From assembly GCA_003225295.1 (NCBI GenBank), contig QHYZ01000103.1, forward strand, positions 1 to 60,666: a DNA stretch of 60,666 bases, in the 5' to 3' direction. The notes under the pieces are model-generated. The model was not told where the DNA came from and searched no databases. It saw only the letters and a program-made list of their open reading frames with translations. The translations under genes and the position numbers were made by a program. Positions 9,680 through 51,931 of the stretch are shown piece after piece (the first letter of the stretch is position 1; each line of letters begins with the position of its first letter). This DNA is from Acidobacteriota bacterium (lineage in GTDB: Bacteria > Acidobacteriota > Terriglobia > Acidiferrales > UBA7541).

Positions 9680-9713
9680 TCGATCCGCACAGACCCTCAG
9701 TTATTTCCTGAAG

Positions 9714-10970: not shown

Positions 10971-10972
10971 AT

Positions 10973-12556
10973 CTATCCCTCCGCTACCAGCGATGGCGGA
11001 ACTTCCAGCCGCCACGCGTCATCCGCTTCTTCGCCATCCTCCGCAAGGGGACGAATCATCAGATAGTGGTCTTCGCCGATCAGTACACCCGCAGTCGCGC
11101 GGATTACGGCCATGGCCCCATCCTCGGTCGGCTCAAGATCGATCTGCAGAACGCCATCGCTGGATGTCACCGAGACCGCCGCTGCGGATCCAGATTTGGC
11201 CGCCAGCGCATCGGCGAGAACATCAAGAAACAACTGAAACGCTCCCTCTGGCAACTCGTCAAGCTGCGACAGACGTACGCGCCGCCCGGCCCCCAGTATC
11301 TGCAGCCACTGGCTGATCTCCCCCGCCTCCTGAAGTGCCAGCTGGCCGAGCTTCGCTCTTTCCGCACTCCGGTCAATCACGTTCTGCGGCCGTCCCCGCG
11401 CCGCGTATCGCCCGGAATTGTGCAGCCGCGGCGAAATCCGTACCGGCGGGGCATCAATCCAGCGCGTCGTTGACGACACAGGCTCGGCGCCGCGCTGGTC
11501 CAGCGTGTCGGCGTCAATCGATAGATGCCGACAGGAATCGAGGGCAAACGCGCCCCGCCACAGTCGATGGGCCGCTTGATCATCCTCCGCTTCTGCAAAC
11601 CACAGAGCCAGTGCCCGCAGGTCGGCTGCCCGATCGCTCCGCCCCGCTCGCCGGTCATTGATCCCCGTCACTGCCGCTACGAGAGAGGGAATCGCCGCCC
11701 GTGCCGCGCCGCGCAACTCCTCTGCTTGCGACGGCCGCTTGTCGCTCCCGACAAACCAGGAACAAAGCCCCTCCCAGCGCTGCTGCCACGCTCGCCGCGC
11801 CACCGCCCGGTCTTCGTCGGTCACCGTCAGCCGATCAACCAATTCTCGCTCCGCTGCCCGATGTAGAAGGGGTGCGATCCTCTCCGGTTCAATCGACCGA
11901 ATCGTCATAGCTATTTCATGCCCCGCCAGAACTAGCTGCGACAAGAACCGCTCCAGATAGTCGATCAGCCGTTGTTTGTAGATGAGAAAGGATTCGACAT
12001 TCAGCCCCTGCAGCTCGATCCGCCGCTGCAAGCCTCCAATGAACCGCTGCGCCTGCGCCGTGAGCTCATCGAACCGCTGCCTCAAGAGCGAAAACGCATT
12101 GAATACGTCCGCATCGTCAACTTTTTCCTGCCGCGAAAGGAAGATGACCTGGTCGAGCTGTTTGCGTATGTCGTCGAGTGCCGCCGCCTGCAATTCGCCC
12201 GGCTGCCGGAGCGATTGCTCGAACACCGCCAGCGCCGCTTCCGCCGCCTCGCCCGCAGCAGACATCTGATACAGGTTCCGGACCCGCCAAAAGTCATCCA
12301 CCGTCAACACTTCCGCAGTGTCGGGATGCGCCTCCAGATTCCCCCACGCCATTAACTGCTGCAACATCATTTCAACCGCCGTCGCATCCGCGTACCTCAT
12401 GCCATCGTCCGCCAACTGCCGTTCCACATCCGTTGGCCGGAGATGTATGACAAACCGGGCCTTGGCCTGCGTAAAGACATTCAGTACGGTGCGATACGTC
12501 ACGCACTTTTCGGCTGTGAGATGCGCGAAGACGTTGTAGTTTGACGACGATGCCAA
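10973..12556 (-). CDS. jetA: Wadjet type II JetA, kleisin-like subunit (TIGR02677/DUF2397 family)
   Basis: A 527-residue protein of the DUF2397 type, the kleisin-like subunit that bridges the JetC heads. The N-terminus NYNVFAHLTAEKCVTYRTVL is a winged-helix-like opening common to the family. Long amphipathic helices follow (residues 150-300), and a C-terminal domain ends near LRLEVPP. The start is an uncommon TTG at 12554-12556, supported by a perfect AGGAGG at 12563-12568 with 6-nt spacing. It is the first gene of the operon. The 318-nt stretch upstream should hold the promoter, though I see no clear boxes. Confidence 0.88.
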   Translation of the reverse strand: MASSSNYNVFAHLTAEKCVTYRTVLNVFTQAKARFVIHLRPTDVERQLADDGMRYADATAVEMMLQQLMAWGNLEAHPDTAEVLTVDDFWRVRNLYQMSAAGEAAEAALAVFEQSLRQPGELQAAALDDIRKQLDQVIFLSRQEKVDDADVFNAFSLLRQRFDELTAQAQRFIGGLQRRIELQGLNVESFLIYKQRLIDYLERFLSQLVLAGHEIAMTIRSIEPERIAPLLHRAAERELVDRLTVTDEDRAVARRAWQQRWEGLCSWFVGSDKRPSQAEELRGAARAAIPSLVAAVTGINDRRAGRSDRAADLRALALWFAEAEDDQAAHRLWRGAFALDSCRHLSIDADTLDQRGAEPVSSTTRWIDAPPVRISPRLHNSGRYAARGRPQNVIDRSAERAKLGQLALQEAGEISQWLQILGAGRRVRLSQLDELPEGAFQLFLDVLADALAAKSGSAAAVSVTSSDGVLQIDLEPTEDGAMAVIRATAGVLIGEDHYLMIRPLAEDGEEADDAWRLEVPPSLVAEG

Positions 12557-25445: not shown

Positions 25446-27059
25446 ATGAGAAAGCTGCACCATATTGGTTTGTTTATCGCTCTTGTCTGTCTTTCGACGG
25501 GGGTCGCGAGAGCACAGTCGTTCCGGGTTCAGTGCCCAACGAGCACCATTACTCACCCGGTGGCGGCCAACAATAATTCGGAACTTCCCTACGCCGGTCC
25601 AACTTACACCGGCACGAGTGGATTTCCTGCAGCACCCGCCCACGTAAACGGGGCAATAAAATGCCAACAGATCTCAGGCGGAGATGGTTTCGCGACGATG
25701 GGTGACGGCACACAGACGTACATGTTCTCCTTCGGACCATTGTCTGGGCTCGCGGACATCGCTAACGGCCAGCCCGGTACAGAGTTCCCGAGCGTCTTCA
25801 ATACCCCCTATTCGGGCACGCCGCTGCTGCCTGGTGATCCTGCCACGACGGTTGATGGGTCCGGTTCGTTTACGTACAACGGCGCCGTGGGGCTGGTTCC
25901 CGAGACTTACACCAATGCATTAGGAAACCCGGTTACGGTCATCAACGGGCACGTGGATGCCCGCCCGATCGAGGATATCGGCGTGATGAACGGCAACATC
26001 CCAGCGCCGCTGATGGCGATCGATGAGGATGACGAATTCTTCCTCACCCTCACTAACGTGGGCATGATCATGCGGCCAGATCTATTCGAGCAGCACACCG
26101 TCCACTTCCACGGTTATCCCAACGCCTCGGCGTACTACGACGGCGTGCCCGACGCCTCGGTGGCCATCAACATCGGCGGCAGCTTCACGTATTACTATCT
26201 TGCGCCGGACGCCGGCACTTACTTCTGGCACTGCCATATCACGCCGCCCGAGCACTTGCAGATGGGCATGGTCGGGCAACTTTATGTGCGCCCGCGGCAG
26301 AATCGCGTCCCGATCGGCGGCAGCCTCTACAACGCCCTTGTGGCCCAGCAAACCGATCCGCGCACGGCTTGCAATTCCGCCGCCGATATTCTGTGCAGCA
26401 ATCCCGTGCCAGCCGTTGTTCCGGTTTCGAACGGTCGGGCAGCAACCGGCAACTACGCCTATAACGATGGTGACGGCTCGACGCACTACGATGTCGAGTA
26501 TCCCATCCAGATCCACGGGTTCGACCCCAATTTCCATTTTGTCGGCATGACTTTCAACCCGGAAGGTTTTACGGATATGAAGGACAAGTACTTCCTGCTG
26601 AACGGACGGAGCTATCCCGACACGGTGCAATCCGGTCCACTGGAGACGAATTCGACGGATGGCGCCAATCATTTCTCGCAGCCGCTGCCCTCAATCATCA
26701 ACATTCCGGCGGGCGGAAAAGCCCTCCTACGCATTTCCGACCTGGACGTGACGGAGTATCAAACTCTGGCATCGCTGGGAATTCCCATGCACGTCATCGC
26801 GCTCAATGCCAAGCTGCTCCGCGATCAAGCGGGAATCAACCTCGCTTACGATTCCAACTCGATCACCCTAGCTGGTGGCGAGTCGCTCGACGTGATTCTG
26901 GATGCTACCAATTACACGGCACCCAATACCTTCTATCTTTACACCCCAAATCTTGACCATCTGTCGAACGATGCTGAGAACTTTGGTGGGTTGATGACCG
27001 AGGTGCATGTCTGCGCCTCGGTAGATCCCCTCACCAAAGTCGGCGTCGGATGCAACTAG
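25446..27059 (+). CDS. Exported multicopper-oxidase-like protein, first part of a split oxidase
   Basis: A 537-residue cupredoxin protein with signal peptide (LFIALVCLSTGVARAQ). The copper motifs present are HTVHFHG (217-223) and WHCHITPPEHLQMGM (261-275), which supply trinuclear-site His pairs and a type 1 Cys263, His270 and Met. The second half keeps the cupredoxin shape (LLRISDLDVTEY; IPMHVIALNAKLL) but lacks the HPxHxH and second HCH motifs. Those His motifs appear instead in the next gene 10 nt downstream. Multicopper oxidases oxidise phenols or metals such as Mn(II), Fe(II) or Cu(I) with O2. AAGGAGG precedes the ATG. Family firm, substrate unknown. Confidence 0.9.
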   Translation: MRKLHHIGLFIALVCLSTGVARAQSFRVQCPTSTITHPVAANNNSELPYAGPTYTGTSGFPAAPAHVNGAIKCQQISGGDGFATMGDGTQTYMFSFGPLSGLADIANGQPGTEFPSVFNTPYSGTPLLPGDPATTVDGSGSFTYNGAVGLVPETYTNALGNPVTVINGHVDARPIEDIGVMNGNIPAPLMAIDEDDEFFLTLTNVGMIMRPDLFEQHTVHFHGYPNASAYYDGVPDASVAINIGGSFTYYYLAPDAGTYFWHCHITPPEHLQMGMVGQLYVRPRQNRVPIGGSLYNALVAQQTDPRTACNSAADILCSNPVPAVVPVSNGRAATGNYAYNDGDGSTHYDVEYPIQIHGFDPNFHFVGMTFNPEGFTDMKDKYFLLNGRSYPDTVQSGPLETNSTDGANHFSQPLPSIINIPAGGKALLRISDLDVTEYQTLASLGIPMHVIALNAKLLRDQAGINLAYDSNSITLAGGESLDVILDATNYTAPNTFYLYTPNLDHLSNDAENFGGLMTEVHVCASVDPLTKVGVGCN

Positions 27060-27069
27060 GAGAGCAGCG

Positions 27070-28680
27070 ATGAGCCAAATGAATACGAAAAGACTGATCA
27101 CGCTTGTAGGACTGCTTCCGGCTGTACTGGCAGCAGCGGCTGTTTTGTTCGCCCTTCCGGCGCATGCGGCGGCTCCTGGGATTACCGGGCCCACATTCAA
27201 TCTGACCGCGCAACCGGCTTACATCAGCCAACCCGACGGAGCGATGATCTACTCCTGGGGGTACGGCTGCCGTACCGGCTTCGCGCCGAGCGGCTTTGCG
27301 CCGAGCGCTATCTCCGGTGCTGCGTGCCCCACGATGCAGGTTCCCGGGCCCACACTGATCGTCACCGAAGGACAGACGGTCACAGTGAGGCTGACGAATA
27401 ATCTGCCCAATGCAGCTGGCAACACATCGATTCTGTTTCCCGGTTTTCAGGTGACGTCAACGCTTGGTGTAAGCGGCCTGCTGACGAGGGAAGCCGGGCA
27501 TTCCACGGTTAACAATACGGTGGTTTACACGTTCGTGGCCTCGTCGCCGGGGACGCACTCCTATTACAGCGGAACGCAAAGCGACCTGCAGGTCGAGATG
27601 GGACTGTACGGCGCAATCATTGTGCTCCCGAACGCCGTCCCCGCCGCGTGCACGGGTGGGCTGGCGGCTGCGAACCGAGCCGTGGAAATTAATTTTGGTG
27701 AAACTGATTACCGCCTGTCGGCTTCCGCTTACGACCACGTGAAGAGTTGCTACGACCGCGAATACCTGTTCCAGTTCTCAGAAATGGATCCCGTCATTCA
27801 CAGCCAGGCACAAGTGCAAGTTGCGGCTAAGACTGGATGTGTGGCTGGAGCTGCCGGATGCAGTCTCAACGTCGCGACCGAGCCTTACCATCCTGCATAT
27901 TTCCTGATTAACGGGCGCTCCATGCCCGACGACATGGACCCGAACTATGCCTTCGAGTATCCGCACCAGCCCTACAACGGCAATCCCCACATGCATCCAG
28001 GCGAGCAAGTGTTGTTGCGCGTCATCGGCCAGGGCCGCTGGCAACATCCGTTCCACGAGCATGGCAACCACGTGCGAATCCTGGGGCGCGACGGGAACTT
28101 GATTCTCAGCCAGGCTGACCCGGCTAACAATCTTGCCGGACCTCTGATGTTCACCACCACGACGACTCCCGGGCTGGCCTTCGACGGAATTTTCTACTGG
28201 ACTGCCAAGGGTCTGAACTGGGATGCCTACGGTCACAATCCTGCTTCTGGTGACGCTTCCGCCAAGCTTTCCTGTACCCCGGATGCCAACGGCTACAACA
28301 CCGGTGTGGCGGCGCAATCGGCGATCAACTATTACGAGTGGTGCCAGGACCACAACAAGCCGATGCAGGTTGCTCCGTTCGGCGATGTGGCGGGTGGCGG
28401 CCCGGTAACTCTGCCCGATGCGAATATTTTCGCGAACGGCGCCTGGTTCGGTGGCAGTCCGTACCTTGGGCCGAATGCAACCGTCCGCGCGACCGGGCCC
28501 ACCGGCACGACTCCGCCGTCAGGCACCATCGCGAACTCGCCCACCGGCGAGGCTGGCTTTGCGTTTATGTGGCACTCGCACAACGAGCGCGAGATCACCA
28601 CCAACAATATTTTCCCCGGCGGGATGCTGATGATGATGCTGGTTGATTCTAGGGAATTCGTGATCGACGAGTCCAATTGA
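27070..28680 (+). CDS. Exported multicopper-oxidase-like protein, second part of a split oxidase
   Basis: A 536-residue cupredoxin protein with signal peptide ending AHAAAPG. The first cupredoxin unit (PGPTLIVTEGQTVTVRLTNN) has no HxHG copper motif. The C-terminal half carries HPFHEHG (326-332) and WHSHNE (501-506) followed by FPGGMLMMM. The usual Cys between the last two His is Ser503, so this protein alone has no type 1 Cys. Its His motifs complement those of the preceding protein. AGGAGA lies 6 nt before the ATG, the gap to the first gene is 10 nt and to the giant gene 16 nt, so all three are one operon. Secreted or periplasmic. Confidence 0.9.
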   Translation: MSQMNTKRLITLVGLLPAVLAAAAVLFALPAHAAAPGITGPTFNLTAQPAYISQPDGAMIYSWGYGCRTGFAPSGFAPSAISGAACPTMQVPGPTLIVTEGQTVTVRLTNNLPNAAGNTSILFPGFQVTSTLGVSGLLTREAGHSTVNNTVVYTFVASSPGTHSYYSGTQSDLQVEMGLYGAIIVLPNAVPAACTGGLAAANRAVEINFGETDYRLSASAYDHVKSCYDREYLFQFSEMDPVIHSQAQVQVAAKTGCVAGAAGCSLNVATEPYHPAYFLINGRSMPDDMDPNYAFEYPHQPYNGNPHMHPGEQVLLRVIGQGRWQHPFHEHGNHVRILGRDGNLILSQADPANNLAGPLMFTTTTTPGLAFDGIFYWTAKGLNWDAYGHNPASGDASAKLSCTPDANGYNTGVAAQSAINYYEWCQDHNKPMQVAPFGDVAGGGPVTLPDANIFANGAWFGGSPYLGPNATVRATGPTGTTPPSGTIANSPTGEAGFAFMWHSHNEREITTNNIFPGGMLMMMLVDSREFVIDESN

Positions 28681-28696
28681 CAACGAGGAAAGAAAA

Positions 28697-31600
28697 ATGC
28701 GAACGAACAATATGAAAGCTATCTTGAAGGCCGCGCTACGAGTAGTCTGTATTCTTCCGTTCGCGGCGGTAGCCGCCTTCGGCCAGACGGTTAATCTGAC
28801 TGCCGGACCGGCCACCGCAACCCTGCCCGATGGCTCAGCGGTGCCGATGTGGGGCTACAGTTGCGGAGCGCCCGTGGCTGGTGCGACTTGCGCCAAATTG
28901 AATCCGGCTGCTCCTGCTGGCGTCTGGTCCCCCGTGGTGATTACCGTTCCCCCAGGACCACTGACGATTAGCCTCACGAATAGCCTCACGTTTGGCGCGA
29001 ATTCCGTGCCCACGTCGCTGGTGATCGTGGGTCAGTTGGGCGGCGGTCTCGGAACGACGGCGACCTCTATGCCGGGTCCGGACCACAGCGGCGCCCAGCC
29101 AATCACGTGGCCCATCGCGGACCCCACACCGACAGGTGTACCACCGGTGCAGGGTCCACGTGTGCAGTCGTTCTCCACTGAAGTGGCGTCTGGCGCGACA
29201 ACGTCACTGACTTGGACAGCTCTTCGACCGGGCACATATCTGATTGAGTCCGGCACGCACCCGTCCATCCAAGGTCCCATGGGTCTGTACGGAATGCTGG
29301 TGGTCACCACTGCTCCCGTAGGAACCACGGCGGGCATAGCGTATCCCGCAGTTGGGACGACTCCTGCGGTGAACTATAATGCGGAAGTTCCCTTGCTACT
29401 CAGTGAAATCGACCCGGTGCAAAATAGGGCGGTCAGCACTGCGGTCAACACTGCGGGCTTTAGCGAGACCGCAGTGTGGTCCGGCCAACCCGGCCAGTGC
29501 GGCAATCCCAGTTCGGCAGTCGGAATTGTAAACACCTGCTATCCGCCCGCAGTGAATTACTCGCCGCTCTATTACCTCTTCAATGGCGTCGCTTTTAATA
29601 AGGCCAGCGCGGCGGCTTCGTTGTTCCCGTCTTCTCCGGCAACAGGGGTTGCCGGAAGCGTTTTGGTGCGCTTGGTGAATGCCGGATTGCGCATGCACGT
29701 ACCTTCGATTGTGGGAACACAAACAGGCACCACACCCCGTTCTGGCTTTTCACTCATTGCGGAAGACGGCAACCCTCTGCCGGGCGTTGCACGCGTGCAG
29801 AGCGAAGTATTCATGGCCGCGGGCAAAACATACGATGTGATGGTGAATGTCCCTGCCGCCGGCGGGACGGCCATTCCCGTGTTCGACCGTCAGTTGAGCC
29901 TGTCGGCCAACGCCATCTCGCGCGACGCCGGAATGCTGGCCTATATTGGCGTCAATGGCGCCTTACTTCCGGCCACTCCTTCAATCGCGGCCGCTGTAGC
30001 CAGGCCGGACACCTACCTTTCCCTTATCGCGGGCAAGACCCTGATCGTATCTGATCCAGCCAAAGGTGTAATCGCCAACGACACGAACGTCAACGGCGTT
30101 ACCGTCTTAACAGCGCCTGCCAATGGCACGCTGACTCTCAACGCCAACGGCACGTTTACGTATGTGCCCACGGGGACCGCTACCACGGACTCGTTCGTTT
30201 ACTATGCGAACGGCAACACGGCCATCACCGCAACGGTGTCATTGGGTGCCGCGACGATTGAGGCGGCTAGTGGCATCACCATGGGCAACATCACGTACAA
30301 CGCCAACGTAGCAGGATTCCTGAGCATCAAGTCCCCGGGCGTATTGTCTGTTGATAAAGATGCGGCCGGGTATCCTCTTATAGTTGCCACGTCGACTGGG
30401 AATGCCCCCGTACCGTCTTCAGGTCTAATTCTTGCGGTTGATCAGAACGGCGGGTTCATCGCGTCCCTTGCGGCGCCGAACACTGCCCCAGCCACTTACA
30501 CTTTTACTTACAAGGCGCAAAACTCGCAGGGGACAATCAGCGCTGCGAGCGCGACCGTGACGATAAACTTCCCGGCGGGGAGTGGTCTTACGGTTTCGGT
30601 TCTGGACGGCGTAGACAAAACTACCGATCTCAGCAACGACTATCGCTGGATCATTGAGGAAGATCGCACCTTCTTTATCGACCCGACCACTACCACGAAC
30701 ACAGGCACGACGATCGTTCCAACCTTTGGCACGAATTTCCACACCAGCTACATGCCCATCGTGGCGGCGGGCTGTGTCGGGACGCGCTCCTGCGAATCAG
30801 GCCAGAGCGTATTAGGCGTGCCGGCGGTGTGCGATGTTGGCAATGGTGTGTGCAGGACCACTGCTGCACAACAGATGGCCGTAAATCCCGGACAAGTCAA
30901 TCTGGATATTACCAAGCGCTACTACATCACGGTCCTGCCGGGTGACGGCGCCGACGCGCTTGACGTCAACGCCCAGGGCCACGCACACGGCATGGGCGGC
31001 GCTCCGCTTGCCTACAACACAACCCTCGCCAGGTGGGTGAACCCGGGTATCACGCCGGCCGGACAGGCGTTCGTCACCGTGCTCGTCGAACCCACGCCCA
31101 TGACGCCAGCCAAACTCTCGGTGTTTGTGTTTCAGGACGACTTCCCGCTCAACGGTGAGCAGGATGGCGGTGGCGGTATCGACGTGTTATCTCCCAACGA
31201 GGCAGGTCTGGGCAGCTTCCAGATCACGCTCCTCGACGATGCGGGCGGCAGCGGTGATGCCACCGGACAACCTACCTACGACATGTTCAACATGCCGTTG
31301 TCGAACAGCTTGGCAGGAACGATCGATCCGGCCACGGGGAATGATGCGTGCCCGGTTTCGGCTCTTGCGACGACTGGAATTGATACAGGCACTGGTCTTC
31401 CCGGTGCCTCGAGTCCCACCGGCATCACGGGCATGATCGTTACCTGCCCGAAGTACGAATCGGACGGACTGACTCTATCACCCCTGGCGGGCCAGGCGAT
31501 CGTTGCTAACTTGTACCCCGGCAGATATGGCGTTTTCGCGACGCCGTCGGCCGATCGGATTGCCAGAGGTGAAGAGTGGCTGCAAACCAATACGCTGGAC

Positions 31601-34600
31601 GGAGAGAAGGCGCACGATTCGTTCCTCCGCGTCGGCGAGCCGGGCTTCTTCCAAGAGTTTGGACCGGCGGGATTCCACGTGTCCATCGGCTTTGCCAACC
31701 CGAAGATCATCAATGATCGCTTGGCGGGCGTCTGCGGAGGCAGCGACCCCACCGTCACCGGCACGAACTGCACCAATACTGTGACGGGCACCGTCACGAC
31801 CGAGCGTATGAGCCGCACCCCGGACCAGAGACTCTACAGCAGCGGCTCGTACGATAGCTTCGCTTTCACCCAATGCTACGTGAGCTTTGGAGACCCGGAC
31901 GGCGAGGATTTTGCATTCACCAAGTGCGCCGCCGATGGCTCTTTCACTCTCTCTGGCCTGCCGGATGGTGATTGGAGAATCACCGTTTTCGACCAGTGGA
32001 ACGACATGCTGGTGGATGGCCTTTCGACGCCTGTCAGACTGGCCGGCGGAACGACCGCCCACTTCGACAACGCTCCCGGCGGCTTAGGCGCGATTGCCAT
32101 GAACCAGTGGCAGACGAACATTTACACCCGAACGTTCTTCGACACGAACCGCGATGGCGTTTCACAGGACACCGAACCCGGACTCTCACTGGTATCGACC
32201 AACATTCGATTCCGAGATGGCAGCTTCTCCAATTTCAACAACACCGACCTCGCCGGCAACGCGGGCTTCAACGAGATATTTCCGCTGTTCAGCTGGTATG
32301 TTGTTGAAACGACAACGACACGCTATAAGAGCACTGGGACTCACGTAGTCTACGACGCAGGCGGCCCCGCCGACGGCACGTGCACCACAGCAACGGCCCC
32401 GTGCGGAAGCTCCAATATTGGCACCTTCTACGCGAACACCTCTGAACAGGTTCCCGTGCCCGCTGGCCTGCGGGTTCCCGGCGCGAGGTACTGTGCGAAC
32501 GCGGACTGCCCTGCTGGCGACACGGCCGGAGGATCAACGGGCCGAGTTGACCCCGCGTGGGTTCTCACCGAGGGCTGGCAAGGATTTTCCGGACAGAACT
32601 CGTTCATCGAATTCGGCAAGATGCCCTTCGCGGCCGGCGAGAACGGCGGCATCAATGGACATGTTGTGTATGCTTCGACTCGTCCATTTGACGACCCATC
32701 GTTGCTCCTGCAGCTGAGTTGGGAGCCGCAGATTCCGCATGTCACCATTAACCTTTACCAGGAGGGGACAGCGGCGGATGGTAGCCAATCCCTCAGATTG
32801 GTTGACACCACGCAGACCAGCAGCTGGGACGATTGGGCCCAGGGCTTTTACCCGGGAACCAACAAGCCCTACATGAGCTGCCCGGGTCAGGGAACGGCCA
32901 GCGGAACAAACGCGGATCTCTTCTTTTTCACGCTGTTCAACCAGCCGGACTACCTTGATTTGTACAACTCCCAGCACGGCGGTCCCGCCGTCCACACGCT
33001 GCCGAACAATTCCCAGTTCAAGTGCTATGACGGCATGCACAACTGGAATCAGGTCCAGCCGGCGCCTTACGACGGCTTTTATCTGTTCCCCAGCATCATC
33101 GGCAGAAATTCGACGAGCGGGGCACCCACCGGGACCGGATCAACCAACGGAACGCCCGGAACGCGTCCCGGTTCGAACTGCACAATCTGCGTAGCTAATC
33201 CGACCGACGGGACTCCCATGCTGCCCGCTGGCAAGTACGTGGTAGAAGTGGTTGTGCCTCCGAACTATGAACTGGTGAAGGAAGAAGACAAGAACATTTT
33301 GATCGGCGACACCTACATCGCGCCGGTGGTGCAACAGTTCGCAGGTCTCGGCAACATCTACATTATTCCCGACCAAGCGGCCGTCGGCGCTACCTACAAC
33401 GCCAACAATGCACAGAACCCGACGCAGGATCTGGGCGTTGTACCACGTCACGAGGGTGATACCGGGAGCGTGGAGACCTTCTGGCCTTGCGTGGGGGCGT
33501 CGCGCGTCGTTCCCGACTACATCAGCCTGTTCCCAGGGTCCCAGGAAGTATCGCCGTTCGCCGGAGCTACTCGCAATCTGTGCGACCGTAAGGAAGTGAC
33601 GCTCACTGACCAGGCGTCCGCGTTGGCGAAGTTCTACCTCTTCACCTCGGCTCACGTGGCCGCCCACTTCACCGGCGTGATCACCGACGACTTCACTTCA
33701 GAATTCGACCCGTTCTCGCCACAGTTTGGCGAGAAATTCTCGCCGGCCAACTTGCCGGTAGCCATCAAGGATTTCAACGGCAACGAGATTTCCCGCGTGT
33801 ATACCGACCACTGGGGGGCCTACAATGGCTTGAATTACTCGACCTGGGAAGTCAACCCGCCCAATCCGACCGGGTACGCGCCCCAGATGATGGTGACGTG
33901 CATGAACGACGCAGGGACTGGAGCGACTCCGGATCCGCTGTACAACTCGCAATACAGCCAGTTCTGCTACGAAATCCCATTCATGCCTGGGCAAACCCAG
34001 TACATGGATACCCCGGTTGTGCCCACCTCCGCCTTTGCGGGCGCGGGATACAACAATCCTGACTGCAACTATCCGGCGTTGACGCCCGCCATCAAAGAAG
34101 TGGATGGCGATGGAGTTGGACCCTACGTGAGCGCGGCCGGTAACACCCTTACGATTACGGCATTGGGCGACCAGATGGTGAACAACAACGCATACTCCGG
34201 GCCTTCGGCCACAGCAGCTCCTTTCAATCAGAAGACTGTTCTGCGCCACTATGGATTTGGCACCGCGGGAACAGTAGCTCTTGTCGGCAGCGATGGCGTT
34301 TCCCATCCGCTTACAGGCGTGAGCTGGAGTGACCTATCGATCACTGGTGGTGTGCCCACCGGCTTGCCGAACTGCGGCATTCAGCAGCAAGCGCAATACG
34401 GAGGCTCGACCGCGCAGTGCGGTCAATTGCTCATCACCAGAGCCGACAACGGCCATCAGTCCATCGACACCGTGACCGTCACCATCGGCGGCAAAGCTCC
34501 AAGCCACGTCCTAGCCTCGACCACGATCCAGAGTGCGATTGACACGGCGGCGCCGGGCGACCTGATTATCGTTGACCCCACTTGCGCGCCGACTACTGGG

Positions 34601-38162: not shown

Positions 38163-38475
38163 CCACCCCGGAGAATGGAGGCGGTTACTGAATGGTGTTC
38201 CGAGATGGGAAACCAAGCGACCACGCCGATGTGATGATTGGCACGTTTCGTGCAGGCAGATACCTATAGAAGCTTCCAACAGGCCCTGGAGAGGGATCCG
38301 TGAGGAGTGTACTTACCAAGTTGTGCAGATCTTTTCTCATTTTTGACTTCGGGGCGTTTGTTGACCGGGGGCTATCAGTGCTTGCCAGCGGTATCGTGGA
38401 CTAAGCCAGGAAAACAGGGGCGGTTTGGCGCAGCCTGCACATCCCCCCGGAGCCTGGCACAAGGATAAATCAGCA
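38163..38475. other. Intergenic stretch with nothing recognised
   Basis: No gene, RNA or repeat was recognised. The promoter of the next exported-protein gene should be near the right end, with AAGGA before its ATG. Confidence 0.5.
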
Positions 38476-38982
38476 ATGTCTAAACATAATGTGACGAGAG
38501 GAACTAAAGTAATGTTGCTGGCAGGGGTTCTCGCGAGCAGCACTTTGGTTATGACGGTGGGGGCCCAATCTCCCGCCCCGACCGGGCAGCCGGGACATGC
38601 GGATGCCAAGCGCTATCAGCCCGACAGGTTTGCCGGACGAGCGGGCAAATATTACGAACTGGTCTGGGGAGTTGACTCTCTGGCCGTGAAGTGGACGGAG
38701 TCGGGCGAGGTCGTCCGATTTACCTACCGCGTGTTAGACGCGGATAAAGCCAAGACGCTCAACGATAAGAAGGCTGAACCCTTCCTGATCGACCCGAGGG
38801 CCCAGGTCAAGCTGGTGGTGCCGTCGCTCGAAAAGGTCGGGCAGTTGCGTCAGAGCAGCACACCCCAGGCGGGTAAGTCCTACTGGATGGCGTTCTCGAA
38901 CAAAGGCAGGCTGGTGAAACGCGGAGACCGTGTAAGCGTGGTGATTGGGCGATTTCGAGCTGACGGACTGGTGGTGGATTAG
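38476..38982 (+). CDS. Exported conserved protein of unknown function
   Basis: A 168-residue protein with signal peptide VMLLAGVLASSTLVMTVGAQ. The mature domain has YYELVWGVDSLAVKWTESGE, VVRFTYRVLDADKAKTLNDK and ends SYWMAFSNKGRLVKRGDRVS plus a short strand. I recall this WGVDSL...YRVLDADKA pattern in small conserved exported proteins without assigned function. The ATG at 38476 with AAGGA upstream is preferred over 38425. It lies between the oxidase operon and the RND pump, so a metal or envelope role is possible but unproven. Confidence 0.75.
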   Translation: MSKHNVTRGTKVMLLAGVLASSTLVMTVGAQSPAPTGQPGHADAKRYQPDRFAGRAGKYYELVWGVDSLAVKWTESGEVVRFTYRVLDADKAKTLNDKKAEPFLIDPRAQVKLVVPSLEKVGQLRQSSTPQAGKSYWMAFSNKGRLVKRGDRVSVVIGRFRADGLVVD

Positions 38983-39115
38983 CGTCTCGCTGCTGGCCTC
39001 TGGTGTGACCGGCGTAGGCTCGCTTGGAGCTTGATGCCGCGCAAAGAAAAATATGTCTTTTGATCCTATGCTTGACTTAAGTCTAAGTCTCAAATCTTCG
39101 AACGAGGTCGCATCG

Positions 39116-40006
39116 ATGTTACGAAAATCACTGGTCATTTCTATGTCGCTGGCGTTTGCCGTTTCCCTTGGCGCAGCCGGGGGCGAAACTCCTTCGCAAG
39201 CCAAGCTTTCCGCTGCTGCCATCGTCGATAAGAACGTGGCGGCCCGCGGCGGTTTGCAGGCGTGGCGCGCGGTCCAAACGATGTCGATGCAGGGAAAACT
39301 GGGCGCCGGAGGGAATCGGCGGGCTACCATCTCGGTTCCAATTCCGGAGAGGAAGTCGAGCAGACAGGCGCTCCCGACGCGGCCGACCGAGGAGGTTCAA
39401 CTGCCGTTTGTTATGGAGTTGAAGCGACCCGGCAAAATGCGGATGGAGCTTCAATTCAACGGCCAGACGGCCATTCAGGTCTTTGACGGCGCCAACGGCT
39501 GGAAGCTGAGGCCGTTCCTCAACCGGCTTGTGGTTGAGCCTTACACGACAGAGGAAATGAAGTTGTCATCCATGCAGGCAGACGTCGATGGTTACTTGAT
39601 CGATTACGCGGCCAAGGGCACCCAGATCGAACTGGTTGGCATGGAGAAGGTTGAGGACCGCGACACATATAAGCTCAAGCTGACCATGAAAAATGGGCAG
39701 GCGATCCATGACTGGATAGACGCGCAGACCTTTCTGGAAGCGAAAATTGAAGGGCAGCCTAGGCGGCTCGATGGCGTGTATCATCCAGTGGAGGTGTATT
39801 ATCGCGATTATCGGCCAGTAAGCGGCCTTCAGATTGCGCATCTTTTGGAGACGAAAGTTCTCCAAGTGGCTCGAACAGCGCAGGGGTTCAGAGACCCGGT
39901 TGTTCCGAGCGAGAAAATCATCGTGGAAAAGGTCGTGGTGAATCCCAAGCTTGATGAAAACCACTTCTCGAAACCAGAACTCCCAGTCGCACCGAATGCC
40001 AAGTAG
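39116..40006 (+). CDS. Exported LolA/LolB-like protein
   Basis: A 296-residue protein with signal peptide LVISMSLAFAVSLGAAGG. Residues 30-230 show the single-sheet pattern of outer-membrane lipoprotein-sorting-like proteins: IVDKNVAARGGLQAWRAVQT, PGKMRMELQFNGQTAIQVFD and GANGWKLRPF, then long strands with ELVGMEKVEDRDTYKLKLTM. Such proteins bind lipids or carriers in the periplasm. The ATG at 39116 begins the signal peptide; the longer frame at 39053 does not. It stands 134 nt after the previous exported-protein gene. The specific ligand is unknown. Confidence 0.75.
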   Translation: MLRKSLVISMSLAFAVSLGAAGGETPSQAKLSAAAIVDKNVAARGGLQAWRAVQTMSMQGKLGAGGNRRATISVPIPERKSSRQALPTRPTEEVQLPFVMELKRPGKMRMELQFNGQTAIQVFDGANGWKLRPFLNRLVVEPYTTEEMKLSSMQADVDGYLIDYAAKGTQIELVGMEKVEDRDTYKLKLTMKNGQAIHDWIDAQTFLEAKIEGQPRRLDGVYHPVEVYYRDYRPVSGLQIAHLLETKVLQVARTAQGFRDPVVPSEKIIVEKVVVNPKLDENHFSKPELPVAPNAK

Positions 40007-40378: not shown

Positions 40379-41860
40379 ATGAAGAGGCCCCTCGCACTAG
40401 GTTCCCTAGCTTTCCTGGCGCTGCTTGCGTTCGCAGCAGGCCGTTATACTGCTAAGCCCAACGATAACCATACTGACGCGAAACGCGTTCTCTATTACGT
40501 CGATCCGATGCACCCTTCCTACCGGTCAGACAAACCGGGAATCGCGCCCGACTGCGGGATGGCCTTGGAGCCTGTGTACGAGGGTGAAGATCGGGCGGCG
40601 AAGCTTCAGTTGAGGCCCGGCGCAGTTTCGATCAGTCCGGAGAAGCAATTGTTGATCGGAGTTCGTGTTTTGAAAGTTGAAAGAAACTCCGGATCTCGCA
40701 TGATACGCACGACCGGCCGCGTGGATGCGGACAGTGGCAAGATCTTTCGCGTGATGGCGGGCGCCGAGGGCTGGGTGCAATCCGTCAAGAATAACCCTGC
40801 TGGCGCGTTTGTAAAAAAAGACGAGCTCCTGGCCTTCCTTTACAGCCGTGAATTTCGCAACGCCGAGCAGGCCTACTTAGGCTCCCTTGCCAGCCTGGAG
40901 CGCTTGAAAGGCACCCACGATCAGGAAGATCCCGCCAGATCGAGCGATGCAAGTTTGCGAATCAATGAGGAACAGTTGCGTTCTTTGGGGATGGGTGAGC
41001 CGCAAATAAAGGAGTTGGCTAAAACACGGCAGATCACTCGCGATATCACGCTGACTTCTCCCATTGATGGAATTGTACTCTCCCGCGATGTCTCTCCCGG
41101 CCAGAGGTTTGAAAAAGGGACGGAGTTTTACCGCATCGCCGATCTGCGCAATGTCTGGATCACTGCCGATCTCTTTGGAGGAGACACACAGTTCTTCGCG
41201 CCGGGTGCACGAGTGAAGGCCACTATTCGCGAACGGGGGAAAACCATCTTTGCCACCGTCGGCGATACCGCGCCGCTCTTCGATCCGGCGTCACGCACCT
41301 TGAAGCTGCGGCTGGAAGCCGAGAATCCCGGCTTTGTCCTGCGCCCAGATATGTTCGTGGATCTGGAATTCAGCGCCAAAGCACCCGCGGGACTTGCGAT
41401 TCCGCAGGATGCCGTCATTGACAGCGGTCTGCAAAAAATTGTCTACGTGGAAACCAGTGACGGGGTGTTCGAGCCGCGCCCCGTGATTCTTGGAACTGCT
41501 TACGGTAATCTCGTCACCGTGACCAGCGGCCTGGCCGCTGGCGAGAAAGTCGTCACCTCGGGGAATTTTCTGATCGATTCGGAGAGTAAGATGCGCTCCT
41601 CGGCGCTCATCTCTCCCGCAATAAAAGATGTGCAACTGTCCTCCGGTCAGCATGCCGTCGCTTTGCGGGACCCGGTCTGTGGAATGGAGCTCGATCCCAA
41701 CCGAGCTTCCTCTGCCGGGTATTCGGAGAAGTACCAGGGTGAAGTGTTCCAGTTCTGTTCGGACAAATGTCAAAAGAAGTTCCAACAGGATCCGGCTAAG
41801 TATGCAGGCGTAAAGGTGAGTTCGGTATCGGATCCGGCGCGCGCTTCGAGACCTGAATGA
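40379..41860 (+). CDS. cusB: CusB-type periplasmic adaptor of a heavy-metal RND pump, with HMBD and YHS domains
   Basis: A 493-residue membrane-fusion protein. After an N-terminal anchor (LGSLAFLALLAFAAGRY) comes a heavy-metal-binding domain (DPMHPSYRSDKPGIAPDCGM, 42-61). The lipoyl/hairpin/beta-barrel core runs about 75-420 (ITSPIDGIVL-type segment TSPIDGIVLSRDVSPGQRFE). The C-terminus is a YHS domain (DPVCGMELDP ... FCSDKCQKKF, about 430-477). Both added domains bind soft or transition metals, so the adaptor can sample periplasmic metal for export. It overlaps cusA by 4 nt (ATGA). No outer-membrane CusC partner is encoded nearby. The name follows family likeness; exact metal unknown. Confidence 0.9.
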   Translation: MKRPLALGSLAFLALLAFAAGRYTAKPNDNHTDAKRVLYYVDPMHPSYRSDKPGIAPDCGMALEPVYEGEDRAAKLQLRPGAVSISPEKQLLIGVRVLKVERNSGSRMIRTTGRVDADSGKIFRVMAGAEGWVQSVKNNPAGAFVKKDELLAFLYSREFRNAEQAYLGSLASLERLKGTHDQEDPARSSDASLRINEEQLRSLGMGEPQIKELAKTRQITRDITLTSPIDGIVLSRDVSPGQRFEKGTEFYRIADLRNVWITADLFGGDTQFFAPGARVKATIRERGKTIFATVGDTAPLFDPASRTLKLRLEAENPGFVLRPDMFVDLEFSAKAPAGLAIPQDAVIDSGLQKIVYVETSDGVFEPRPVILGTAYGNLVTVTSGLAAGEKVVTSGNFLIDSESKMRSSALISPAIKDVQLSSGQHAVALRDPVCGMELDPNRASSAGYSEKYQGEVFQFCSDKCQKKFQQDPAKYAGVKVSSVSDPARASRPE

Positions 41861-44800
41861 TTAACCGCATCATCGAATTCTCTGCAAACAACAAGGTTTT
41901 GGTATTCGCTTTACTCGCCGCAGCTTGTCTCTGGGGAGCCTGGTCAGCTTTTCATCTGCCTTTGGATGCCCTCCCAGACCTCGGCGAGACCCAGGTAATC
42001 GTTCTCTCCCGTTGGGATAGAAGCCCGGATATTATCGAGGACCAGGTCACTTATCCCATTCTCTCCGCCATGACTGGTGCGCCGAAGGTGCGGACCGTTC
42101 GCGGCATCTCGGACTTTGGGTACTCCTATGTTTATGTCATTTTCGAGGAAGGCACCGACATCTACTGGGCGCGTTCTAGGACCCTCGAATATCTTTCCGG
42201 CGTGACTTCCCGGCTTCCCCCGGAGGTCAAGACAGAAATTGGGCCCGATGCGACGGCGCTCGGTTGGGTTTTCCAGTACGTTCTCAAGGACGAATCCGGG
42301 CAGCACAGTCTTGGAGAGCTGCGTTCCTATCAGGATTGGTATCTCCGCTATTACTTGCGAGCCGTGCCGGGAGTCGCCGAGGTCGCTTCCCTCGGCGGAT
42401 TCACACAGCAATACCAGGTCAATGTAGATCCCAACCGGCTGCGCTCCTATGGAATCCCCATCTCGCGCGTGGCCGACGCCGTTCGCGAAGGCAACCGCGA
42501 AACCGGAGCGCGGCTGCTGGAATTCGGCGGCGCTGAATATATGATCCGGGGCCGCGGATACCTAAGCTCAACCAAAGATATTGAGGAGACCGTCCTGACG
42601 GCCGTTGACGGGACTCCGATCCGCATCAAGGATGTGGCTCGCGTGGTCATTGGCCCTGATCTCCGGCGCGGCGCAACTGATCTGAATGGCATGGGGGAAG
42701 TCGTCTCCGGAATTGTAGTCACGCGCGAGGGCAGCAACGCCCTCGACGTGATCGACCGCGTCAAGGTGCGGTTGAAAGAAATCGAGCCGAGCCTGCCCCA
42801 AGGAGTCAAGATTGTCCCGGTTTACGACCGCTCGGAATTAATCCTCCGTGCCGTTTCGAATGCACGCCTGACGCTGATCGAAGTGATGCTCACGGTGGTC
42901 ATCGTTATTGTGATTTTTCTCTGGCATTTCCCAAGCGCCGCGATTCCCGTTGTCACCATCCCGGTCACCATCCTGCTTACTTTTATTCCGCTGCACTTTG
43001 CCGGCGTCAGCATAAATATTATGTCACTGGCCGGCATTGCCATTGCGTGCGGCGAACTCGTGGACGCCGCCATTGTGGTTGTCGAGCAGACACACAAGAA
43101 GCTGGAAATTTGCGAGCGATCCGGCAAGCCATTTTCCCCTAGCGAAGTGATTTTGGCGGCCGTGAAGGAAGTAGCTGGGCCCACATTTTTTGCTTTATTG
43201 GTTATTGCCGTAGCTTTCTTGCCGGTTCTTGCTTTGGAAGGCCAGGAAGGCAAGCTCTTCCGGCCACTGGCCTATACCAAGAACTTTGCCATGCTGGTGG
43301 CGGCTGGGCTCGCCGTCACACTAACTCCGGCACTTCGGCTTCTCCTAGTGCGCAACAGGCCCATCCTCGCCAATGCCGGCACGCGGCTTCAGCGCCTGCT
43401 TGATTCATTATTGGGTGGCAAGATCCGATCACAAGAGGATCACCCCATCACCGGGCCACTCATGCGTATCTACGCTCCAGTCGTTCGCTGGACTCTCCGT
43501 CGGAAAATGCAGGTTATTGCGGCGGCGATCGCCCTCGTGCTCCTGGCGATTCCCATGTACTGGACGCGTGGCTCGGAGTTTATGCCCCAAGTGGACGAAG
43601 GCTCCCTCCTTTATATGCCTACCACTATGCCGGGTATTTCCATCGCAGAGTCGCAGAGACTTCTGCAGCTGACGGATCAGATCTTGATGAATTTTCCGGA
43701 AGTCGATCATGTCCTGGGCAAAGCGGGGCGCGCCGATACTCCGACCGATCCGGCGCCACTCTCCATGCTCGAGACCGTCATCGTCCTCAAGCCGCAATCG
43801 GAATGGAGCGATGCTCACACCTGGTACTCCTCCTGGGCGCCACGGTGGCTCCTTCCCGTTCTACGGCACATCACGCCCGACCACATTTCGCAACAACAAC
43901 TCGTTGCGGAGATGAACCAGGCGCTGAAAATCCCAGGCCTCTCGAATTCCTGGACCATGCCCATCCGGGGACGCATTGATATGTTGAACAGCGGCATACG
44001 CACGCCGGTGGGGCTAAAGATTCAGGGCGCCGACCTGAACAAGATGCAGGAGATCGGACGGCAGGCAGAAAAACTCCTCAGCGTTGTTCCCGGCACTCGA
44101 AACGTTTTTGCCGAACGCATCGGCGATGGCTACTTTCTCGACGTGAATTGGGATCGTCAGGCACTGGCCCGCTACGGGCTCTCGATCGAAGATGCCCAAA
44201 ACGCCCTCTCGACCGCGGTTGGCGGGGAAAACGTCAGCACGGTGATCAAAGCCAGGGAGCGGTACCCTGTCAACGTCCGCTATCTGCGCGACTTTCGGTC
44301 GGACCTCGAGTCGCTCGGCCGCGTGTTGGTGTCCGTCAGCGGCGATAAACAAATCCCATTGTCCGAGCTGGCCACCCTTCATACTTTAACTGGCCCCTCC
44401 ATGATTCGGAACGAGGACGGATTGCTCACCGAGTATGTCTTTGTTGACGTGACGGACGTCCCCGTTGGTGACTATGTCGAACAAGCGCAACGCGAATTGC
44501 AAAACAAGCTGAAGCTCCCGACTGGTTATTCGATCTTGTGGAGTGGCCAATATGAAATGGCTCTTCGCGTCCGGCATCGATTGATGCTCATCGTGCCGGT
44601 CACTGTCGCCATCATCCTCTTTCTGCTTTACTGCAATACGCGATCGGCGGTGAAAACCATGATCGTTGCCCTGGCAGTTCCATTCTCCGCAGTGGGCTCC
44701 ATCTGGATGATTTCCGCGCTCGGCTACAATATGAGCATTGCTGTCTGGCTCGGCATTCTCGCCCTTCTCGGGATCGATGCCGAAACCGGAGTCTTTATGC

Positions 44801-45174
44801 TGCTCTACCTTGACCTCGCGTATGAGGCCGCGCGGCGCGAGCACCCGCAGTTCACGCAAGAGCATCTCTATGATGCCATTGTGGAAGGGGCCGCCCGCCG
44901 GTTGCGTCCCAAATTCATGACCTTTGCGATCATGTGCATCGGCTTGATTCCCATCCTGTGGTCTAATGGAACCGGATCGGAAATCATGAAGCGGATGGCC
45001 GCTCCGATGATCGGCGGTATCTTCACCTCCTTCATTCTCGAGCTGCTCGTTTATCCTCCTATCTATGCGGTATGGCGAGAAAAAGGACTGAAAAAGGAAC
45101 CCATTCGGGATCCAATCATGGTGGCCGGCCATGTAGGCGCAGCGCAAGCGATTGGCGCCGATACGATCCGGTAA
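41857..45174 (+). CDS. cusA: CusA/CzcA-type heavy-metal RND transporter
   Basis: A 1105-residue inner-membrane proton antiporter of the HME-RND group. It starts INRIIEFSANNKVLVFALLA with TM1, followed by a periplasmic porter domain (DLGETQVIVLSRWDRSPDII). The TM4 proton-relay region GELVDAAIVVVEQTHKKLE has the Asp and Glu typical of metal RND pumps. A second TM block ends SFILELLVYPPIYAVWREKG. Length and 12-helix layout are complete. With the adaptor it would export Cu(I)/Ag(I) or divalent cations from the periplasm. The operon is cusBA only. The nearby copper oxidases make copper a reasonable but unproven substrate. Confidence 0.93.
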   Translation: MINRIIEFSANNKVLVFALLAAACLWGAWSAFHLPLDALPDLGETQVIVLSRWDRSPDIIEDQVTYPILSAMTGAPKVRTVRGISDFGYSYVYVIFEEGTDIYWARSRTLEYLSGVTSRLPPEVKTEIGPDATALGWVFQYVLKDESGQHSLGELRSYQDWYLRYYLRAVPGVAEVASLGGFTQQYQVNVDPNRLRSYGIPISRVADAVREGNRETGARLLEFGGAEYMIRGRGYLSSTKDIEETVLTAVDGTPIRIKDVARVVIGPDLRRGATDLNGMGEVVSGIVVTREGSNALDVIDRVKVRLKEIEPSLPQGVKIVPVYDRSELILRAVSNARLTLIEVMLTVVIVIVIFLWHFPSAAIPVVTIPVTILLTFIPLHFAGVSINIMSLAGIAIACGELVDAAIVVVEQTHKKLEICERSGKPFSPSEVILAAVKEVAGPTFFALLVIAVAFLPVLALEGQEGKLFRPLAYTKNFAMLVAAGLAVTLTPALRLLLVRNRPILANAGTRLQRLLDSLLGGKIRSQEDHPITGPLMRIYAPVVRWTLRRKMQVIAAAIALVLLAIPMYWTRGSEFMPQVDEGSLLYMPTTMPGISIAESQRLLQLTDQILMNFPEVDHVLGKAGRADTPTDPAPLSMLETVIVLKPQSEWSDAHTWYSSWAPRWLLPVLRHITPDHISQQQLVAEMNQALKIPGLSNSWTMPIRGRIDMLNSGIRTPVGLKIQGADLNKMQEIGRQAEKLLSVVPGTRNVFAERIGDGYFLDVNWDRQALARYGLSIEDAQNALSTAVGGENVSTVIKARERYPVNVRYLRDFRSDLESLGRVLVSVSGDKQIPLSELATLHTLTGPSMIRNEDGLLTEYVFVDVTDVPVGDYVEQAQRELQNKLKLPTGYSILWSGQYEMALRVRHRLMLIVPVTVAIILFLLYCNTRSAVKTMIVALAVPFSAVGSIWMISALGYNMSIAVWLGILALLGIDAETGVFMLLYLDLAYEAARREHPQFTQEHLYDAIVEGAARRLRPKFMTFAIMCIGLIPILWSNGTGSEIMKRMAAPMIGGIFTSFILELLVYPPIYAVWREKGLKKEPIRDPIMVAGHVGAAQAIGADTIR

Positions 45175-51359: not shown

Positions 51360-51931
51360 ATCGTTGCTGCCTCCACGGCAGGCCTCAATCGGACCATGAA
51401 AACCCGCCTGAACCGCACGGGGCCGCTCTAAAAAGTCAAATCCAGTGGAGGTAAGAGCAAATGTACGGCCACGGTAGGAAATCGCTATTTCAGTACATCA
51501 TCCCGTATGACCCACCTTATAGCTCATAACCCTGGTCTACTTATTTGCTGTAGCGCAAAGAAGGACCCTTTGCTCCCCTTCAAATACTCGCGTGCTGCCA
51601 GTCGGCGTTTAGGGCGGCTAAGAATGAAATGTCCTTTTAATGGAAATCTTGAGGAAGGTAACCCCTATTCAGAGGCAGATGCCGGACCCGTAGGAAAGGC
51701 CTACGGAGCTGATCAACGTGCGGAGACCAGGTCGATTACCCACGGCAATCGAGATGCATGAATAATGCCGGGCACTCATGAATTCTCATACCCCCGACAA
51801 TTCGCTGCCAAGGTTGTTGTAGCGCAAAGACGAACCGCCAAGATACGTTGATATTATTGTTTAATGGCTGAACTGGCAGCCGAAATGCGCGGTTGCCTGT
51901 CGCTGGTCCGATGGAGTAGGTCTCTCAAGCT
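51360..51931. other. Divergent intergenic region with repeats and a hairpin
   Basis: A 572-nt stretch between the divergent secretin and transglycosylase genes. TTGCTGTAGCGCAAAG (51545-51560) and TTGTTGTAGCGCAAAG (51814-51829) are 15/16 identical direct repeats. CCGTAGG (51688-51694) and CCTACGG (51700-51706) form a 7-bp hairpin with loop AAAGG. The repeats might be regulator sites for both genes. No coding sequence was recognised. Confidence 0.55.

Follow-up and report, generated by a model that had tools for sequence, protein, structure and literature searches.

Copper ligands of a putative multicopper oxidase divided between two adjacent gene products on an Acidobacteriota contig

Ceruloplasmin has six cupredoxin domains arranged around one trinuclear copper site. 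Two-domain multicopper oxidases (2dMCOs) are trimers in which the trinuclear site is built from two protomers, and a type C class has been defined among them; six-domain oxidases (6dMCOs) occur as monomers (PMC13151041, in the part of that paper drawn on here). In the 60,666-nt stretch analysed in this study (the window; contig QHYZ01000103.1 of the Acidobacteriota bacterium assembly GCA_003225295.1), three consecutive genes at 25446–37582, all on the (+) strand, encode the proteins P1, P2 and P3, the first two of which divide between them the copper ligands of a multicopper oxidase (MCO). P3 starts with a third cupredoxin region, P3N, and continues into a giant adhesin-like region. Cassettes of this kind are found in soil bacteria.

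Copper ligands of P1, P2 and P3N

P1 carries the motifs HTVHFHG (H217–G223) and WHCH (W261–H264), followed by H270, M273 and M275, and P2 carries HPFHEHG (H326–G332) and WHSH (W501–H504), with Ser503 and no HCH. These positions are, down to each residue number, those given in an earlier note on this DNA, which had proposed that one oxidase is split over the two chains. As that note had also said, neither P1 alone nor P2 alone holds a full MCO ligand set, which a census of the ligands in both chains bore out. Taken together they hold one Cys, one putative axial Met, two candidate type 1 His and eight candidate trinuclear His. Both proteins lie above the Pfam cut-offs for Cu-oxidase_3 and Cu-oxidase_2, and neither attains any cut-off in NCBIfam.

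The best PDB matches of P1 domain 1 are 3g5w (the blue copper oxidase of N. europaea) and 2zwn (a metagenome laccase), which we take to be type C 2dMCOs. Residues 180–293 align with domain 1 of both (E = 9.7e-16 and 4.6e-14), such that HTVHFHG falls over HTIHWHG and HCHITPPEHLQM-GM over HCHVNVNEHVTMRGM; at the place of HDH in the second domain of two-domain oxidases, a weak alignment puts YTP. When domain 1 of P2 is set against ordinary oxidase domains, FPGF stands for HxHG and YYSG for HSH (the HSH of 4f7k). For a profile of P2 domain 2, 2zwn came out on top, and HPFHEHGN aligned with HAMHSHGH and WHSH...FPGG with FHDH...HPGG; this match is weak (E = 0.0011 for the whole chain), and the motif register carries the point, not the score. 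By these alignments, P1 is the putative domain 1 copper half and P2 the putative domain 2 copper half of one type C two-domain enzyme. Alignment to known enzymes would assign H217, C263, H270 and M275 to the type 1 copper and the eight His to the trinuclear cluster. M275 was chosen over M273 as the axial ligand because M273 is Leu in one related locus (L150), where M275 is kept.

Some of the motif statements in the earlier note need rewording. Its claims that P1 has no HPxHxH and P2 no HxHG are correct if the motifs are spelled exactly so, or if the other domain is meant, but HTVHFHG is itself an HxxHxH motif and HPFHEHG contains HEHG. P2 does lack a type 1 Cys, as claimed, in that it has no HCH, but Ser503 sits where domain 2 of type C enzymes has HDH and need not mark a damaged type 1 site. 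The idea of P2 as merely a degraded oxidase that has lost its type 1 Cys was rejected, since its HSH aligns with that HDH. An extra HMH pair in P2 (H307-M-H309, window 27988–27996) may be another copper site. A general role of this kind was rejected, because its His residues, although invariant in 79/79 clade 1 rows, are not kept in clade 2 (below).

The ligands were followed through the best 80 of 249 relatives found in a scan of genome contigs, whose titles name Acidobacteriota, Burkholderiaceae and others. The resulting clade 1 alignments hold 81 rows for P1, 79 for P2 (leaving out L054, with two frames, and L106, with two frames at a contig end) and 77 for P3N (76 loci plus the window; L041 was too short, and some rows are partial). 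An extended set with 16 further regions has 97 P1, 94 P2 and 92 P3N rows, some of them near-duplicates. In P1, H217, H220, H262, C263, H264, H270 and M275 are identical in 81/81 aligned rows and H222 in 80/81; in P2, H326, H329, H331, H502, S503 and H504 are identical in 79/79. In the extended set HxxHxHG is present in 96 of the 97 P1 rows, and P2 has HPxHxH in 94/94 and HSH in 93/94, the missing one being a trimmed row from L147, a locus in which HSH is present. Type 1 ligands in the N-terminal domain belong to P1 only (HCHx5H in 97/97 rows), with HCH in 0/94 rows of P2 and 0/92 of P3N. P3N has HxH in 5/92 rows; HxxHxH occurs in a single row, that of L145, right where the open frame begins. 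Invariant positions number 179 in P1, 156 in P2 and 42 in P3N in the clade 1 alignments, P3N being the least conserved of the three.

In a type C enzyme eight trinuclear His would lie in one chain; here four fall in P1 and four in P2, and P3N has neither HCH nor HSH. As a control, 20 other MCO relatives were taken from a search of the window's family, one of them from the same genome. All but one of these (19/20) have at least four HxH pairs per chain, including HCH, and for the exception, L018, the wrong reading frame was probably chosen. By the same count P1 has two such pairs, and P2 has three, none of them HCH.

In 80/80 loci P1 and P2 are neighbours on the same strand, with P2 as a single full-length frame in 78, and P3N was found in 77/80, the contigs of the other three (L062, L065 and L106) ending at that point. 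The fusion of P1 and P2 that the earlier note had suggested looking for did not turn up: no frame holds both in the 80 related loci, the 16 added regions or a further locus, L164. Long open frames do occur in L065, L110 and L158, but there P1 and P2 lie in different frames. The two genes also occur together across genomes. In the window's phylum, Acidobacteriota, P1 was matched in 14/297 and P2 in 13/297 genomes (E 1e-10), and the sole genome with P1 and without P2 (G224) has its P1 truncated by the end of a contig. Both were found in the same 16/200 genomes of the family to which the L112 genome belongs (Burkholderiaceae by inference; E 1e-20); one of these, G422, shows two additional partial matches to P1, and one of its P1 frames contains a stop. 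In the phylum of the L112 genome (likewise inferred, as Pseudomonadota) both were found in the same 2/398, one already counted in the family set. In the window's own family, searched with P1 only, 45/89 genomes matched at E 1e-3, ordinary single-chain MCOs included. The window's genome carries a second cassette (L160; genome G000, contig C147, 1–16000), with P1 80% and P2 83% identical, the same motifs, and a P3 that runs into the contig end. The plasmid database PLSDB returned, with a clade 2 P1 as query, only the 8 clade 1 records already found with clade 1. In the P. largidicola plasmid record all three cassette genes are annotated as hypothetical, and in the PLSDB records of C. metallidurans CH34 and P. 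caribensis MBA4 the cassette stretch is unannotated.

A second, more distant clade consists of ten loci (L145–L153 and L164), in which P1 is 37–45% and P2 33–39% identical to the window's proteins and the ligands are split in the same way. The copper ligands are thus truly divided between P1 and P2, and the division is old. In this clade P3N is a separate gene after P2 in all loci long enough to include it (9/9; L153 stops within P1), and the P3N frame of L152 weakly matches the first part of the giant region as well. That adhesin-like region, which is fused to P3N in the window's clade, is a separate gene before P1 in 6/10 clade 2 loci, and in L149 (5857–12726) P1 and the giant region share one 2290-residue frame with cadherin-like, SdrD_B and beta-helix matches; no giant region was found in L145, L150 or L153. 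The set of P1, P2 and P3N therefore stays constant while the partner of the fusion changes, an argument for all of them belonging to one assembly.

Proposed assembly and its alternatives

For structure prediction, P1 and P2 of L151 were taken as one natural read-through, together with 31 relatives (32 rows), which gave a mean predicted local distance difference test (pLDDT) of 70 and a predicted template modelling score (pTM) of 0.57. The P2 half resembles 2zwn (Z 28.0, root-mean-square deviation (rmsd) 2.3 over 263 residues) and 3g5w (Z 27.9), and the P1 half the copper nitrite reductase (CuNIR) 3x1e (Z 24.9, rmsd 2.8, 264 residues). The model of the window's P3N, made with 38 relatives (pLDDT 83.2, pTM 0.85), matches 3g5w and 2zwn alike (Z 24.3, rmsd 2.9, 268 and 267 residues). 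All three proteins are thus predicted to have the two-domain 2dMCO/CuNIR fold. The structure matches listed are to single chains, and ceruloplasmin is not among the 50 listed for either model, which excludes nothing. The earlier note had allowed for a copper-free cupredoxin start of the third gene as part of the enzyme; P3N does lack copper motifs and does belong to the set, but it has two cupredoxin domains and not one. The six domains are therefore spread over three genes of two each, and three two-domain paralogues, two with complementary half-sites and the third without, resemble a heterotrimer with one active interface.

The best explanation, to which we give a probability of roughly two in three, is that P1, P2 and P3N form a heterotrimer, its six cupredoxin domains closed into a ring that has a single composite active site. 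The three would be diverged copies of one ancestral type C 2dMCO, assembling 1:1:1. At one interface, domain 1 of P1 (H220, H222, H262, H264) would meet domain 2 of P2 (H329, H331, H502, H504) to form a single trinuclear copper site, with the type 1 copper supplied by P1, while the other two interfaces would have lost their ligands. Such a ring would be loaded with copper and would reduce O2, and the enzyme could probably work only when different proteins assemble. The complex might be exported and held on the adhesin-like scaffold of P3, and it might use a metal-ion or mineral electron donor (Fe(II), Mn(II) or Cu(I)), with O2 or a cytochrome as the acceptor. The parts of this proposal differ in strength. 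A composite P1/P2 trinuclear site is probable. Complementary ligands, the shared fold, conservation and joint occurrence in genomes support the split oxidase of the earlier note, with the start of the third gene as a further part; the note's motif logic needs correcting in that domain 1 of P1 and domain 2 of P2 are each intact. The place of P3N as third ring member is a reasonable expectation, and for a metal-ion or mineral substrate the odds are about even.

Several observations weigh against this reading of a predicted complex. One P1 row (L073) carries Ser in place of H222. The scores of the L151 model are, in our judgement, about right for two well-folded halves whose relative placement is unknown, and domain 2 of P2 around HSH is poorly predicted in it (blocks of 33–57). 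Mutual information over 91 paired loci (effective number about 52, four cut-offs) did not single out the predicted contacts. Covariation between P1 domain 1 and P2 domain 2 was 1.21–1.32 times expectation, and the other contacts predicted by the ring were near or below 1 (P2 domain 1 with P3 domain 2, 0.86–1.15; P3 domain 1 with P1 domain 2, 0.29–1.08). The strongest signal among the 200 top pairs, at 2.13–2.66 over the four cut-offs, joined P2 domain 1 to P3 domain 1, which is not a contact that the ring predicts. Invariant residues are unable to covary, but mutual information is still no help to the ring model. As for context, CusB/CusA-type genes were found within only 5/100 stretches (at least 34% identity), six more having only 23–26% matches to resistance-nodulation-division (RND) pumps; most long stretches stop near the end of P3, so that absence of these genes there means little. 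Neither the cytochrome of C. metallidurans CH34 nor SCO1 matched within the window, and a search of the window's own genome with that cytochrome gave no match (this search had no positive control). Finally, the likeness to a cluster of S. lithotrophicus (below) rests on described content and not on compared sequence.

The four candidate trinuclear His of P2, invariant in 79/79 rows and kept in the distant clade, would be hard to explain without copper if P1 alone were the enzyme, whether as a homotrimer whose only copper is type 1 or as something like a nitrite reductase, with P2 and P3N as structural or regulatory paralogues that share no site. This would suit the complete type 1 site kept in P1 and the closeness of the P1 half of the L151 model to CuNIRs, and degenerate, non-catalytic MCO relatives do exist. 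It would leave the four trinuclear His of P1 without partner His inside the chain: the candidates in its domain 2, H505 and H449, are not conserved in clade 2 (H449 occurs in 45/81 clade 1 rows). We regard it as quite improbable. Another arrangement, a P1/P2 heteromer of other stoichiometry in which P3N serves only to anchor the giant protein, draws on the absence of copper motifs from P3N and its position as the least conserved subunit. It appears improbable, given that P3N shares the two-domain fold and follows P2 in both clades, even as a separate gene, and that known two-domain MCOs close as trimers (PMC13151041, same part).

A further alternative concerns function and is compatible with the composite site: the complex could be chiefly a copper-detoxifying (cuprous) oxidase like CueO or PcoA, and not an extracellular oxidase of Fe, Mn or minerals. 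CusB/CusA-type genes do lie beside the cassette in five stretches, 3' of it in the window and in L151 and before P1 in three others (same strand in L059 and L060, other strand in L070). The cassette is also carried by C. metallidurans, a copper-tolerant organism. The other 95/100 stretches are without such genes at the same threshold, most of them being too short beyond P3; moreover, type II secretion-like genes, a giant adhesin-like partner and cytochrome c genes occur in several of the stretches, and the matching S. lithotrophicus cluster is reported to be more abundant on magnetite (PMC12016527, in the part used here). A primarily detoxifying role is unlikely, though it has some weight.

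Gene layout and neighbourhood

The intergenic gaps in the window's cassette are 10 and 16 nt. A purine-rich ribosome site precedes each gene, that of P1 being AGGAGG, 10 nt 5' of the ATG, and a signal peptide was read by eye in each product (537, 536 and 2961 residues). Coordinates of the cassette, its ligand motifs and the genes that follow are collected in Table 1.

Table 1. Features of the cassette and of the genes 3' of it in the window
Feature	Position	Strand	Remarks
P1, two-domain MCO-fold subunit (predicted), 537 aa	25446..27059	+	Domain 1 with putative type 1 copper site and four candidate trinuclear His; domain 2 without copper motifs
P1 HTVHFHG (H217-G223) codons	26094..26114	+	Putative type 1 His H217; putative trinuclear His H220, H222; alignment to domain 1 of 3g5w/2zwn
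P1 H262-C263-H264...H270...M275 codons	26229..26270	+	Putative trinuclear His 262/264; putative type 1 Cys263, His270, Met275; alignment to 3g5w/2zwn
P2, two-domain MCO-fold subunit (predicted), 536 aa	27070..28680	+	Copper-free domain 1; four candidate trinuclear His in domain 2; no type 1 Cys
P2 HPFHEHG (H326-G332) codons	28045..28065	+	Putative trinuclear His H329, H331; aligned with HAMHSHG of 2zwn domain 2
P2 H502-S503-H504 codons	28573..28581	+	Putative trinuclear His H502, H504; aligned with HDH of 2zwn domain 2
P3, third two-cupredoxin subunit (putative) fused to giant adhesin-like region, 2961 aa	28697..37582	+	Cadherin_4, Big_9 and choice-of-anchor Q above cut-off
P3N (P3 residues 30-425), two cupredoxin domains without copper motifs	28784..29971	+	Predicted model and structure matches; own gene in clade 2
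hyp185, conserved protein 3' of cassette in both clades	38425..38982	+	Signal peptide by eye; no Pfam match
317 aa protein, relative of LolA-like protein of C. metallidurans cluster	39053..40006	+	Sequence match
CusB-type adaptor, heavy-metal-binding and YHS domains	40379..41860	+	Context, outside the enzyme itself
RND efflux pump gene (ACR_tran), adjoins CusB-type adaptor	41857..45174	+	Context; the name CusA is inferred

The hyp185 gene follows the cassette in 7/10 clade 2 loci; L146 and L153 break off before the point where it would lie, and L147 gave no match to it. The cluster of C. metallidurans CH34 (L117) has a type II secretion-like set before P1, comprising genes for an ATPase, a secretin and pseudopilins. 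After the cassette come a hypothetical gene, hyp162, and genes for LolA-like proteins, a cytochrome c protein, SCO1, a PpiC-type isomerase and a lytic transglycosylase; the transglycosylase and some of the other genes were named by eye. The type II secretion-like set is also present in L091, L100, L107, L112, L114 and L115. SCO1 was found in L107, L118, L152 and L164 as well, and a cytochrome in L118, L119, L164 and, weakly, L145, such that SCO1-like and cytochrome c genes occur in clusters of both clades.

In the window itself, a weak secretin match (29%) and a lytic transglycosylase (SLT) gene are located at about 49563–52774, some 12–15 kb 3' of the cassette. On the (-) strand at 4167–12556, four adjoining genes match the PADLOC models JetA2, JetB2, JetC2 and JetD2 (best E 0 to 6.3e-127) and make up a complete-looking type II Wadjet anti-plasmid system.

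Relation to described oxidase systems

The earlier note had compared the split enzyme with MnxG-type oxidases, which turn out to be the weaker analogue. The Mnx complex (MnxG-MnxE3F3) is alike in that an MCO needs other subunits for activity, but only mnxG encodes an MCO there, MnxE and MnxF being without known homologues according to the part of that paper drawn on here (PMC5622069). Here, in contrast, all three subunits are predicted to have the MCO fold, and two carry ligands. The MofABC/OmpB clusters have one MCO gene and combine the extracellular MCO with a cytochrome c, a protein with a periplasmic binding domain, a peptidyl-prolyl isomerase and/or SCO1 (PMC5566968, likewise in part). 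The C. metallidurans cluster also has cytochrome c, PpiC-type and SCO1 genes, a likeness by description only.

The closest described cluster is found in S. lithotrophicus ES-1, for which three tandem genes for predicted extracellular MCOs have been listed together with a MofC-like cytochrome and a copper chaperone (PMC5566968, same part). The products of Slit_1812–1818 had a higher abundance in late cultures on magnetite than in late cultures on Fe(II)-citrate. They include three predicted extracellular cupredoxin proteins, of which one is larger, free of MCO motifs, and adhesin- and polysaccharide-lyase-like, as well as small hypotheticals, SCO1/SenC and a cytochrome; Slit_1817 and Slit_1818 are credited with canonical MCO motifs, their role being left open in the sections drawn on here (PMC12016527). 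Similar clusters are described, in the part of the literature used here, from Paraburkholderia, Ralstonia, Anaeromyxobacter and Steroidobacteraceae. The content of the clusters of C. metallidurans (L117) and of genome G828 (L164) matches the published description of Slit_1812–1818, a comparison by description only, by which Slit_1817 and Slit_1818 would be orthologues of P2 and P1, respectively. The magnetite-induced cupredoxin cluster of an iron oxidiser would thereby gain a concrete, testable active site. The window differs from that cluster in that CusB/CusA-type genes follow the cassette and neither a cytochrome nor SCO1 was matched.

A search of the open PMC literature found no paper on a split, heterodimeric, two-subunit, heterotrimeric or two-component multicopper oxidase; subscription papers and supplements lay outside its scope. 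It is an even chance that the cassette encodes a heteromeric MCO for which we found no description, in which the trinuclear cluster would exist only between two gene products and a ligand-free paralogue would close the six-domain ring: a living intermediate between homotrimeric two-domain and single-chain six-domain oxidases, mounted on a giant adhesin-like protein for work at a mineral or cell surface. Motif searches can label each such chain a canonical or a degenerate oxidase while the enzyme itself goes unnoticed. The step from homotrimeric two-domain enzymes to the six-domain ceruloplasmin type plausibly went through a stage with differing repeats and lost sites, and a heterotrimer with one composite site, if true, would be such a stage still in use.

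The type C enzymes 3g5w and 2zwn have in common with the split pair two cupredoxin domains, HxxHxHG and an HCHx5H type 1 site in domain 1, and HxxHxHG and HxH in domain 2. They differ in that a type C enzyme has both half-sites in every chain, whereas here the halves are on separate gene products, which would leave one site per trimer. Ceruloplasmin and the other six-domain MCOs share the six-domain layout of the proposed ring, and the ligand count fits one trinuclear site per six domains; in those enzymes a single chain carries all six domains, and here three chains would do so.

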